In this document: one piece after another, positions 15,964 to 19,155 of the stretch
How positions within the stretch are numbered: position 1 is the first letter of the stretch
How the letters are laid out: every line of letters starts with the position of its first letter
Made by a program: the position numbers and the translations under genes
Notes under the pieces: generated by a model
The model's database searches: none
Told to the model about the DNA's origin: nothing
What the model saw: the letters and a program-made list of their open reading frames with translations, nothing else
Assembly (NCBI RefSeq): GCF_001182895.1
Contig: NZ_LFQR01000058.1
Span: 1-64,000 of the forward strand
Reading direction: 5' to 3'
DNA length: 64,000 nt
From: Frateuria defendens
GTDB lineage: Bacteria > Pseudomonadota > Gammaproteobacteria > Xanthomonadales > Rhodanobacteraceae

Positions 15964-16278
15964 TCAGTGCATGCGGAGCAAGCCGAAGCAGGCGGCCACC
16001 AGCAGCAGGGCCAGCGCGAGCATCGAGGCCAGGCCGAGGAAAACGCCCAGGCCCATGCGGGTCCTGCCCTGCGCGAGCAGGACGATCGCCGCGACCAGGA
16101 TGGCGACGAGCGGCAGCGGCAGCAGCATGCCATACAGCAACGGCACGGCCATGCCCAGCGCGACCAGCAGCACGCTGCCGCCGAGGCCGATCGCCCAGGC
16201 CAGGCCAAAGCCCTTGGCGAGGGAGCCCTTGGGGTTGCGCGGCGGGTCGCCGGGCAGGGGCGGCGGCTGCTCGCTCAT
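15964..16278 (-). CDS. Small membrane protein, last gene of the lipid-enzyme operon
   Basis: A 104-residue protein with a proline-rich N-terminus (PPPLPGDPPRNP) and about three hydrophobic helices (residues 25-50, 52-69 and 75-100). The N-terminal half resembles DUF4190-like small membrane proteins, but I cannot assign a family. Its ATG overlaps the stop of the radical SAM gene by 4 nt (ATGA), so the two are translationally coupled. It may anchor or present substrate to the upstream enzymes; that is inference from position. Confidence 0.65.
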   Translation of the reverse strand: MSEQPPPLPGDPPRNPKGSLAKGFGLAWAIGLGGSVLLVALGMAVPLLYGMLLPLPLVAILVAAIVLLAQGRTRMGLGVFLGLASMLALALLLVAACFGLLRMH

Positions 16279-17709
16279 GGCGCGCCTGCCCTTTCGGCGT
16301 AGTCGCGTTCGATCTCGCGGCGCAGGCGCGCGAGGGTGTCGGCCTTGCCGTCGCGGTAGAACAGGTTGAAGGTATCGAACGGCACGATGCGGCCGTCCGG
16401 CTGCGCGATGTGCACGCAGGACTTCTTCACCGCGCGCAGGTCGAAGCTGTGGGCGTCGATGAACTGCATGATCAGCACGCGGAACACGTTGCGATACGAC
16501 AGGTCCGCCGGCGCCTGCACCTGCGGCAGGCAGCACAGCAGGTCCGACAGCGAGCAGGCCTGCGACGCGGGCGAGTGGTTGGTGGCGAAGAGCTCGAACA
16601 CGTGCGCGCGCAGCGCCTCGTCGCGCTCCACCACGATGGTGTTGCGGCCCTTGCTCACCAGTGTCTCCGGCGAGACGAAGCGGGTCAGCGGCTGCACTTG
16701 GCCGCCGAGCTTGAGCGCGTAGGCCATCGCCAGGCAGTCCGGGTTGCACGGCACGGGGATCAGGTCATCGGGCTGGAACAGCGGGCTCTGCTCGAGGATG
16801 CGCCGGCGCACCTCGCTCAAGGTCAGCCGGTCGTGTGCCGGATCGTAGCCGTCCAGGCGGCCGGCGGCCTGGATCGGCTGGAAGGTGACGCCCCGCACGC
16901 AGGGCTGGGTCAGGGCGAAGTCGATGATCTCGCCGAGCTCGTGGTCGTTGAGCCCTTTCTTCACCGTTACCACCAGCGTGGTGGAGATGTCGTGGGTTGA
17001 GGTGTTCCAGCGCCTTCAGCCGCACCTCGCGCAGCCTGGCGCCGCGCAGGTCGCGGTGCACCGCCTCGCGCAGGGAGTCGAATTGCAGGTAGAGCTCGAA
17101 GCCTGGCTGGTAGTCGGCCAGGCGGGCGGCGAAGTCCGGCTCCCTGGCAATGCGCAGGCCGTTGGTGTTGACCATCAGGTGGTGGATCGGCCGCCGCCGC
17201 GCCGCGTCGAGGATGGCGAAGAACGCCGGATGCAGGGTGGGCTCGCCGCCGGAGATCTGCACTACGTCGGGCTCGCCCTCGTTCGCCACCACGGCGTCGA
17301 GCATGCGCTCCACCGTGGCGAGGTCGCGGAAGCCCGGCCGGTGCGGGCCGCTTTCGGCGTAGCAGATCGGGCAGCGCAGGTTGCAGTGGTCGGTGATCTC
17401 GACCAGGGTGAGGCAGGAGTGCTGCATGTGCTCGGGGCACAGGCCGCAGTCGTAGGGGCAGCCGAAGTGCTGCGGCGTGTTGAAGCGCTGCGGCAGCTCC
17501 GGCGGCTTGACGTAGACCTCGCGGCATTGCCGGTAATACGCCGCGTCGTCGGCCAGCAGCACGCGCTCGCGGCCGTGCTGGGGGCACCATTTCTCCAGGT
17601 AGACGCGTTCGTCCTTGATCAGGATCTTCGCCTCCACCCGCCGCAGGCAGGTGGCGCAGACCGACACCGCGCTGTCGTAGAACAGGTACGGCCTTACCTT
17701 GGCTCCCAT
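16275..17709 (-). pseudogene. Tes-like radical SAM protein, frameshifted
   Basis: A product of about 477 residues if the frame is repaired. It begins with a rubredoxin-like Cys set (CATC, then CPQHG), continues with CPYDCGLCPEH and the radical SAM motif CNLRCPIC, has the SAM-binding ISGGEPTLHP, and ends with a Cys-containing region (PVPCNPDCLAMAYALK). This arrangement matches my memory of archaeal tetraether synthase (Tes, MJ0619), which joins lipid tails by C-C bonds. The frame breaks at 16994-16996, where the minus strand reads AACCCACGAC; dropping one C gives a continuous protein (HDISTTLVVTVKKG). It overlaps the Lgt-like gene by 16 bp and the downstream membrane protein by 4 bp. The intact coupling argues for recent loss or a sequencing error. 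Confidence 0.8.
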
Positions 17710-18446
17710 GCCTTGCGCCCCCTCGTGCGCAGCGATGCGGCGATACGCGGAATGTCGCGACGGTAATAGCACAGCCCGGCCAGGCAAAGCAGTTGCAGTC
17801 CGGACAGGGCGCCGACATAGGCGTAGGGCAGGGGCTTGATGAACTCGACCAGCAGGCGGAAGGCCAGGTAGCCGATCATGAAGGCACGGAAGCGGTCGCC
17901 GGGGTGGCCCAGCGCGTGGCGGTAGCGGTGGATCAACCCGTATTGCGCGAGCAGGAAGGCGATCTCGTAGAGCTGGGTGGGATGCCGCGCCACTCCGTCG
18001 CCGAAATCGACACCCCACGGCAGCGAGGTCGGGTTGCCGTAGGTGTGATCGTCCAGCCCGGCGAGGAAGCAGCCGATGCGGCCGATGCACATGCCCACGG
18101 TCAACGGAAGCACGAAGGCGTCGCCGGTCGAGCGCCGCACGCCGGCGATGCGCTTGGCGAGCTCCACGCCCACCAGGCCGCCGAGCAGGGCGCCGATGAT
18201 GGACTTGCCCTCCAGCAGGTGGCCGAGATCGGGAAAATCGGCGAAGGCCCGCAGCGGGTCGTCCAGCCAGAACGCGAGCTTGGCGCCCAGCGCCGCGCCC
18301 ACGATGGCGCCGACGCCGACCGACACCACGTCGTCCTCGCGCTCGAAGGCGGCGGGCGCCAGCCGCTTGCGGGTCCACAGGAAAGTGCGCAAGCCGGCCG
18401 CGTAGGCCAGCATCTCGAACACGGTATGCAGGGCGACGGGCGGCAT
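17694..18446 (-). CDS. Lgt-like (prolipoprotein diacylglyceryl transferase family) membrane protein
   Basis: A 250-residue protein with about six to seven membrane helices. It shows the Lgt family pattern: SIIGALLGGLVGVELAKR near residues 85-100, GRIGCFLAGL near 140 and RHPTQLYEI near 175. In housekeeping Lgt the equivalent of GRIGCF is GRIGNF with a nearby essential Glu; here Asn is Cys and the segment reads LDDHTYG, as in Lgt paralogs of unknown substrate. The true lgt is expected elsewhere in the genome. It lies 13 bp after the oxygenase and overlaps the radical SAM gene, so all are one operon. Confidence 0.82.
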   Translation of the reverse strand: MPPVALHTVFEMLAYAAGLRTFLWTRKRLAPAAFEREDDVVSVGVGAIVGAALGAKLAFWLDDPLRAFADFPDLGHLLEGKSIIGALLGGLVGVELAKRIAGVRRSTGDAFVLPLTVGMCIGRIGCFLAGLDDHTYGNPTSLPWGVDFGDGVARHPTQLYEIAFLLAQYGLIHRYRHALGHPGDRFRAFMIGYLAFRLLVEFIKPLPYAYVGALSGLQLLCLAGLCYYRRDIPRIAASLRTRGRKAWEPR

Positions 18447-18459
18447 CGGCGCGCCCGGG

Positions 18460-19155
18460 TCAGTCCCGGTGCGCGGCGTTACGGTCGCGGTCGGCGCCGA
18501 AGCGGCGGTCCAGCGAGCCGAACAGCTTCTTGAAGACGCGCGAGAACTTGCCGCGCTTGGTCTTGCGCAGCTTCTCCTCCTCGCTGGTGAGCCAGGCCAC
18601 CTGGATCACCCGGCGCTCGCCCTCGTAGGGCAGGTGGCCGTGGAAGGAGTTGTCGCAGCGCTTGAACACGGCGAACTCGCCGTACAGCGGCTTGAGTTCG
18701 GGCGCCAGCAGGGCGTCGATGTCGTCGATCTTGCCGAGGAAGCGCAGGCAGCCGTCGCTGCTGTCCGGCCACATCGGGTTCAGGTAGAGCAGGGCGGTGG
18801 CGACCTTGGAGCGGCTGTCGGTGTGGATGGTGCCGTGGCGCTTGTTGAGCGAGCGGCACAGCGTCACCAGGGTCGGGTAGTCGCCGAGGTTGGCGATGCC
18901 CAGGCGCTTGCCGATCGCGTCGGCGAACTCGGGCGCGGTCAGGCCTTCCACCAGCGCGTTGACCGAGGGGCCGCAGTCGCTCGGGTCGTAGGGGAAGAAG
19001 CCGGCGCCCGCATAGCGGGGAAAGTCGCGGTCCAGGTCGCTGCGCGCCTCGTCCGGCAGCTGGCCGTGCGCCACCAGGAACGGGAACGGCTCCAGCCGGA
19101 CCTCGGTGTCGGGACGATCGAGGCGGGCGGGGTCGAGCAGTACGGTGGCGAGCAT
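18460..19155 (-). CDS. Fe(II)/2-oxoglutarate-dependent oxygenase
   Basis: A 231-residue protein with the facial triad of the 2OG-Fe(II) superfamily: HTD in GTIHTDSRSKVATALLYLN (about residue 115), a distal His in NSFHGH (about 173) and the 2OG-binding Arg in ERRVIQVAW (about 184). The C-terminus is basic. It is the first gene of the minus-strand operon with the Lgt-like, radical SAM and small membrane proteins, and is divergent from carA. A hydroxylase in a lipid-enzyme operon suggests acyl chain or head-group oxidation, but the substrate is not known. Confidence 0.85.
   Translation of the reverse strand: MLATVLLDPARLDRPDTEVRLEPFPFLVAHGQLPDEARSDLDRDFPRYAGAGFFPYDPSDCGPSVNALVEGLTAPEFADAIGKRLGIANLGDYPTLVTLCRSLNKRHGTIHTDSRSKVATALLYLNPMWPDSSDGCLRFLGKIDDIDALLAPELKPLYGEFAVFKRCDNSFHGHLPYEGERRVIQVAWLTSEEEKLRKTKRGKFSRVFKKLFGSLDRRFGADRDRNAAHRD

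Follow-up and report, generated by a model that had tools for sequence, protein, structure and literature searches.

What does a bacterium do with an Lgt-like membrane enzyme and a radical S-adenosylmethionine (SAM) enzyme of the Tes type encoded side by side? The question is raised by a locus in Frateuria defendens, on a stretch of 64,000 nucleotides (here called the window) that comprises positions 1–64,000 of the forward strand of contig NZ_LFQR01000058.1, from a draft assembly of 333 contigs (GCF_001182895.1). Its minus strand carries four closely packed reading frames (Table 1), for a 2-oxoglutarate (2OG)-Fe(II) oxygenase, an Lgt-like enzyme, a Tes-fold radical SAM enzyme and a small membrane protein. 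A preliminary description of the locus gave the gene positions and the spacings (+13, -16 and -4 bp in gene order) correctly, but overlooked a break in the frame of the radical SAM gene at about 16995; it took the four genes for one operon that may make or modify a lipid or lipoprotein. The answer we lean towards is a cassette dedicated to lipid modification of the small membrane protein: a lipid would be placed on a cysteine and radical chemistry would act on the lipid or the site.

The oxygenase can be set apart from the other genes by comparison with 61 relatives, 37 of which are of the same family (Rhodanobacteraceae in the source lineage). It occurs in 36 of these 37 genomes, with or without the cassette, and adjoins carA in several, while the Lgt-like and radical SAM genes occur in just four (4/37), the same genomes for both. 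The sole exception to their co-occurrence among the 61 relatives is a lone radical SAM fragment on a contig of genome G059. Two loci (L178 and L179) have kept the oxygenase and are without both enzymes. Since it is present regardless of the cassette, and is kept without the enzymes at these two loci, the oxygenase counts as resident in the family and was rejected as a component of the system; the cassette has either been inserted beside it or been lost from there. The idea of a single four-gene operon was abandoned for this reason, and that of a hydroxylated lipid finds no support with the oxygenase outside the system. A gene of tetratricopeptide repeat type, also variable in presence, sits between the oxygenase and the Lgt-like gene in some relatives. 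At L179 (genome G102), carA and the oxygenase are followed by no more of the small protein than its 25 C-terminal residues, an apparent deletion of the Lgt-like gene, the radical SAM gene and the remainder of the small protein. As judged from the sequences, comparison shows the true unit to be the Lgt-like enzyme, the Tes-fold radical SAM enzyme and the small membrane protein.

A scan of GTDB genomes with an alignment of the radical SAM protein found at least 556 relatives, of which the best 80 were examined. The bacteria among them belong to the Gamma- and Betaproteobacteria, Acidobacteria, Bacilli, Myxococcota, Omnitrophota, Elusimicrobia, Planctomycetota and Verrucomicrobiota, and there are also three Poseidoniales-type archaeal metagenome-assembled genomes (MAGs; L086, L087 and L089). 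The Gram-negative setting assumed at first does not hold, as the system is carried by Paenibacillus, Brevibacillus and Bacillus as well as by these archaea. Of the 80 loci with sufficient flanking sequence, L029 and L095 alone do not have the Lgt-like gene adjoining that for the radical SAM protein, so the pairing, for which a neighbourhood search had been suggested, proved to be conserved across phyla. Usually the Lgt-like gene lies directly upstream of the radical SAM gene and overlaps it; in three loci (L081, L085 and L092) it is on the opposite strand. The distance matrices of the two proteins are well correlated (r = 0.81 for 81 pairs, with none of 2000 permutations as high). The three archaeal radical SAM proteins form a supported clade in the tree considered below, an argument against stray contamination. 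In L020 (4186–8505) and L021 (3688–7840) the cassette takes a second, distant form, in which an Lgt-like gene is accompanied by genes for a tiny membrane protein (ending LGACLLGAR or FGTCALSGR), a weakly ferritin-like protein (238 residues) and a radical SAM protein (about 520 residues); in L020 a fatty-acid-hydroxylase-like gene comes next.

The small membrane protein was rightly counted among the components in the preliminary description, which merely listed it, though it is the most informative part. A Pfam search gave no family for it. In the family to which the window's protein belongs, strong conservation is confined to the C-terminal LLLVAACFG, and an alignment of 10 homologs that are otherwise little alike shows A95-A96-C97-F98 to be invariant. 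Bacilli have a different small protein in the same place, ending ...LLNAACFG..., and Betaproteobacteria and Acidobacteriaceae have two-helix small proteins with the cysteine after helix 1 (SLCGG, GLCG, FTACG). In the archaea, the small protein of one MAG ends GFCLLMIGSGNML, and two MAGs encode a membrane protein of 360 residues ending GFFGCVA..SAGW. The small proteins beside the pair belong mostly to unrelated families, yet in nearly all of them a transmembrane helix bears a cysteine at its outer edge. Scoring by script places a small membrane protein with a membrane-edge cysteine next to the cassette, and on its strand, in 65 of 82 loci; among 89 control pairs of genes taken from these contigs, 3 have one (p = 4e-27, a value that, like the other p-values given here, is optimistic because related loci are not independent). 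The overlap filter of the script drops some real small proteins, several of the 17 loci scored as without one being losses of this kind, and manual reading adds further cysteine-bearing proteins to the 65. Lysine plus arginine average 2.18 before the cysteine helix and 0.51 after it (p = 5e-9), which implies that the cysteine faces outwards, as does the active site of Lgt (PMC4728403). The canonical lipobox [LVI][ASTVI][GAS]C is matched by just 6 of the 76 candidate cysteine sites, so that the small protein probably remains embedded in the membrane rather than being cleaved by LspA.

Two or three small membrane proteins stand in tandem beside one pair at L025, L030, L044, L052, L078, L082 and L084, and one tandem copy is without the cysteine in L030 and in G103. 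The genome of L018 (G039) has a cassette without a small protein; its sole good match to the family is an unlinked gene ending LLLVAACFGLVFVGSTF. No second substrate was found elsewhere in the window's own genome, where a search with the Paenibacillus small protein returned a single match, a weak one (E 0.05), to the window's small protein.

The fate of the cysteine where the enzymes are missing was followed in 233 same-family genomes. The radical SAM gene, with sequence beside it, is present in 20 genomes, and all 20 keep a small protein with the cysteine motif (one extra tandem copy is without it). Intact homologs without the radical SAM gene occur in three genomes (G014, G116 and G271), two of them between carA and dapB and one adjoining the oxygenase, and the cysteine has gone from all three. 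The difference (20/20 kept with the enzymes, 3/3 lost without them) has p = 6e-4, with few independent losses. The C-terminal remnant in G102, of 25 residues and with the motif, was not counted as intact, and a match in G215 was discarded as spurious, being a transporter. This comparison shows the cysteine of the small protein to be under enzyme-dependent selection.

The Lgt-like protein belongs to the Lgt family by its score on PF01790 (89.8 bits, cut-off 24.9) and lies below both NCBIfam equivalog cut-offs for the Lgt enzyme (59.2 against 334 bits and 28.6 against 118.9 bits). It is a paralog, as a canonical housekeeping Lgt (252.7 bits) is encoded on contig C66 of the same genome. Canonical Lgt is also present in all 18 bacterial cassette genomes tested; the two archaeal MAGs tested have the Lgt-like form only. 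Residues were compared between 74 Lgt-like and five canonical sequences, with the E. coli numbering mapped from the alignment. R143, R239 and Y235 are retained in all 74 Lgt-like sequences and G154 in 73, R143 and R239 being the phospholipid-binding arginines of Lgt. N146, which is Asn in the five canonical proteins, is Cys in 74 of 74; H103 is replaced by Val, Ile or Leu (His in none), Y26 mostly by His, E151 is absent, and a new Glu and Lys (ExxK) are invariant. Y26, H103, R143 and E151 are essential in E. coli Lgt according to PMC4728403; PMC13251419 lists Y26, H103, R143, N146, G154 and R239 as essential and E151 as dispensable. Among these, R143, R239 and G154 are kept here and Y26, H103 and N146 are replaced. 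The AlphaFold model of the Lgt-like protein is confident (predicted local distance difference test, pLDDT, 92.9), and E. coli Lgt (5azb) is found by sequence search. The invariant cysteine at the Asn146 position (Cys126 in the window's protein) would suit a different role for the small protein, that of a partner or assembly factor whose own cysteine binds a metal or forms a disulfide within a complex, for example with Cys126. The joint loss of cysteine and enzymes is compatible with such a complex as well. The several unrelated families of small protein, in which the cysteine position differs, are better accommodated by a recognised site, and we give the partner role little credence.

A sequence search with the radical SAM alignment matches GDGT-MAS/Tes (7tol) at 1e-74, and the model predicted by AlphaFold for the L024 ortholog matches 7tom with E 4e-36 and a template modelling (TM) score of 0.78, the next best being SuiB at 0.36. 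The structural likeness to Tes that had been anticipated is borne out, and so is that of the cysteine motifs. With the cluster ligands of Tes as defined in PMC9433317, all are conserved: the rubredoxin site CX2C-X20-CX2H (C18/C21/C42/H45), the N-cluster CX3CX2C (C84/C88/C91) and the RS cluster CX3CX2C (C109/C113/C116). Met439 and Tyr459 are further conserved residues of Tes, Tyr459 fully so in archaeal Tes (PMC9433317); M415 of the paired protein aligns with Met439. A match to the HMPTM zinc ribbon (PF23545, 5e-17) was also obtained from Pfam. On the family profile the protein scores 274 bits, under the Tes cut-off of 450. In a quick maximum-likelihood tree, which has long branches and an unsure root, MJ0619 and six Acidobacterial Tes homologs group together (SH-aLRT 99) and the Lgt-paired proteins fall outside. 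Membership in Tes was rejected on this score and tree position; the preliminary description had placed the protein in that family and had named in advance a position outside it as ground for giving the idea up. TrsS (NF045646), which gives the best NCBIfam score (331 bits, full-length alignment), was rejected too, its cut-off being 490. The protein is one with a predicted Tes fold and Tes metal sites that belongs to a separate clade. Six Acidobacterial loci (L104–L108 and L124) have a separate Tes homolog, one of them above the Tes cut-off, besides the Lgt-paired protein. As a defence system the locus was dismissed, since PADLOC gave nothing past a generic radical SAM similarity to viperin.

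The Tes fold and metal sites are what would be expected if the cassette served membrane-lipid synthesis, the radical SAM enzyme coupling the tails of free lipids, the Lgt-like enzyme supplying or using diacylglycerol and the small protein acting as an accessory, and a role in making branched glycerol dialkyl glycerol tetraethers (brGDGTs) has been proposed for bacterial Tes homologs (PMC8941075, PMC11868695). However, the paired proteins form a clade apart from archaeal and Acidobacterial Tes, Acidobacterial genomes carry Tes homologs additionally, and a cysteine at the same membrane position in unrelated proteins, lost along with the enzymes, is left unexplained. For these reasons free brGDGT synthesis is lowered as an explanation and seems quite unlikely. 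The conserved membrane-edge cysteine points to modification of a protein in preference to synthesis of a free membrane lipid; of the original suggestion, modification of a lipid or lipoprotein is still the best reading, without the free lipid as its target.

A small precursor adjoining a radical SAM enzyme, with a short invariant C-terminal motif in an otherwise variable sequence and with tandem copies at some loci, also recalls the ribosomally synthesised and post-translationally modified peptides (RiPPs), and the DAG-RiPPs do combine RiPP and lipoprotein pathways (PMC12636315). The radical SAM enzyme would then set a crosslink in the helix or tail of the peptide, either a Cys thioether or a C-C bond, with the Lgt-like enzyme responsible for lipidation or export and a modified lipopeptide or signal as the product. 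Against this, no maturase family comes near its cut-off, maturases are distant in structure (TM about 0.36, against 0.78 for Tes), and cytosolic chemistry would be on the other side of the membrane from the cysteine; we judge RiPP-like maturation unlikely.

Under the preferred reading, a lipid-modification cassette for the small protein, homology to Lgt and the topology suggest that the Lgt-like enzyme would transfer a diacylglyceryl or similar lipid group to the thiol of the cysteine at the outer helix end. The cytosolic radical SAM enzyme would, to judge by its fold and metal sites, carry out radical chemistry on an alkyl tail of this anchor or of its donor. That step could join the tail to another tail or to the protein, and the order of the steps is left free. 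A more specific version is conceivable but doubtful: a widespread and so far undescribed post-translational modification of bacteria and certain archaea, in which the Tes-fold enzyme links a tail of the cysteine lipid anchor, attached by the Lgt paralog, through a C-C bond to a second tail or to the protein, so that the lipoprotein is covalently stapled by its lipid and might span the membrane.

Several observations weigh against the cassette reading. The active sites of the two enzymes would sit on opposite sides of the membrane. With Y26, H103, N146 and E151 all replaced, diacylglyceryl transfer by the Lgt-like enzyme is not assured, and no Lgt structure, 5azb included, is among the 50 matches listed by Foldseek for its model. 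Tyr459 of Tes aligns with Ile or Phe in the paired radical SAM proteins and is not conserved. The radical SAM proteins of L029 and L095 belong to the paired clade and have neither an Lgt-like gene nor a small protein nearby, and L018, L042, L051, L081 and L085, among others, are clearly without a visible small protein. To these must be added the optimism of the p-values and the broken state of the window's own radical SAM gene. The orthologs of that gene in L015, L016 and L017 have a single open frame of 478 codons, and comparison with L015 gives ratios of nonsynonymous to synonymous substitution (dN/dS) of 0.05 before the frameshift and 0.10 after it. Such low values on both sides imply a recent lesion or a sequencing or assembly error; the break may be either an error or the mark of a young pseudogene.

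Table 1. Features of the locus in the window (forward-strand coordinates).
Feature	Position	Strand	Evidence or remark
2OG-Fe(II) oxygenase	18460..19155	-	PF13640 2OG-FeII_Oxy_3, 4e-7; adjacent, not a component of the system
Lgt-like integral membrane enzyme, 250 aa	17694..18446	-	PF01790 LGT, 2e-25
Codon of Lgt-like Cys126 (in GRIGC; replaces Lgt Asn146; family-defining)	18069..18071	-	
Tes-fold radical SAM gene, frameshifted	16275..17709 (pieces 17709-16996, 16994-16275)	-	PF04055, 6e-21
Frameshift position in radical SAM gene	16995	-	Two separate matches in G000, one continuous in relatives
Small membrane protein, 104 aa, Pro-rich N-terminus, proposed acceptor	15964..16278	-	Orthologs beside radical SAM gene
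Codons of small-protein C-terminal motif LLLVAACFG	15982..16008	-	Cys97 codon = 15988-15990

If the cassette reading is true, there is a second branch of bacterial protein lipidation, which has an enzyme and an acceptor motif of its own and includes a radical SAM step, and it spans Bacilli to Proteobacteria plus Poseidoniales archaea; Lgt is reported absent from archaea (PMC13251419). The bacterial 'Tes homologs', treated in surveys as possible brGDGT makers (PMC8941075, PMC11868695), would also need rereading. The Lgt-paired clade is likely, from its similarity to Tes, to form a part of the surveyed hit lists, and it probably does something other than brGDGT synthesis. Counts of bacterial Tes homologs may mix it with the separate ones. 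The proposed acceptor cysteine makes the question directly testable on one small protein.

Among known systems, Lgt (PF01790; E. coli 5AZB/5AZC) is of the same family as the membrane enzyme described here. Both are integral membrane proteins with R143, R239, Y235 and G154, and both have a membrane-edge cysteine nearby as the likely acceptor. The cassette enzyme differs in being a second copy, in its replacements (Y26H, H103V/I/L, N146C, loss of E151), in the new invariant ExxK and in its linkage to a radical SAM gene, and its putative acceptor is mostly non-lipobox and often C-terminal. Y26H and N146C are also reported for MSMEG_5408, the second Lgt of Mycolicibacterium smegmatis, which is described there as having presumably low Lgt activity (PMC13251419). 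The radical SAM enzyme resembles Tes/GDGT-MAS (MJ0619; 7TOL, 7TOM; NF045702) in predicted fold, in the rubredoxin, N-terminal and RS ligands and in the residue aligned with Met439; it differs in its separate clade and sub-threshold score, in not conserving Tyr459 and in standing nearly always beside an Lgt paralog. TrsS, alignable over its full length and likewise under the cut-off, offers no function to transfer, as no role for it was found in the open-access literature searched. DAG-RiPPs (the dyb cluster) also unite, in a genome-encoded small protein, an unusual enzymatic modification with S-diacylglyceryl-cysteine, which is here only predicted; they rely on an MNIO enzyme, carry a normal signal peptide and employ the housekeeping Lgt, LspA and Lnt (PMC12636315). 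In the cassette the cysteine is at a C-terminal helix end or in a two-helix protein, unlike that of a DAG-RiPP precursor, and no MNIO was noticed in the neighbour tables, as judged by size and sequence with no MNIO profile applied. A pairing of an Lgt paralog with a Tes-like radical SAM enzyme was not found described in the open-access literature, that on Lgt being covered in part. As far as could be checked, the component families are known, and their combination and the acceptor motif are new.

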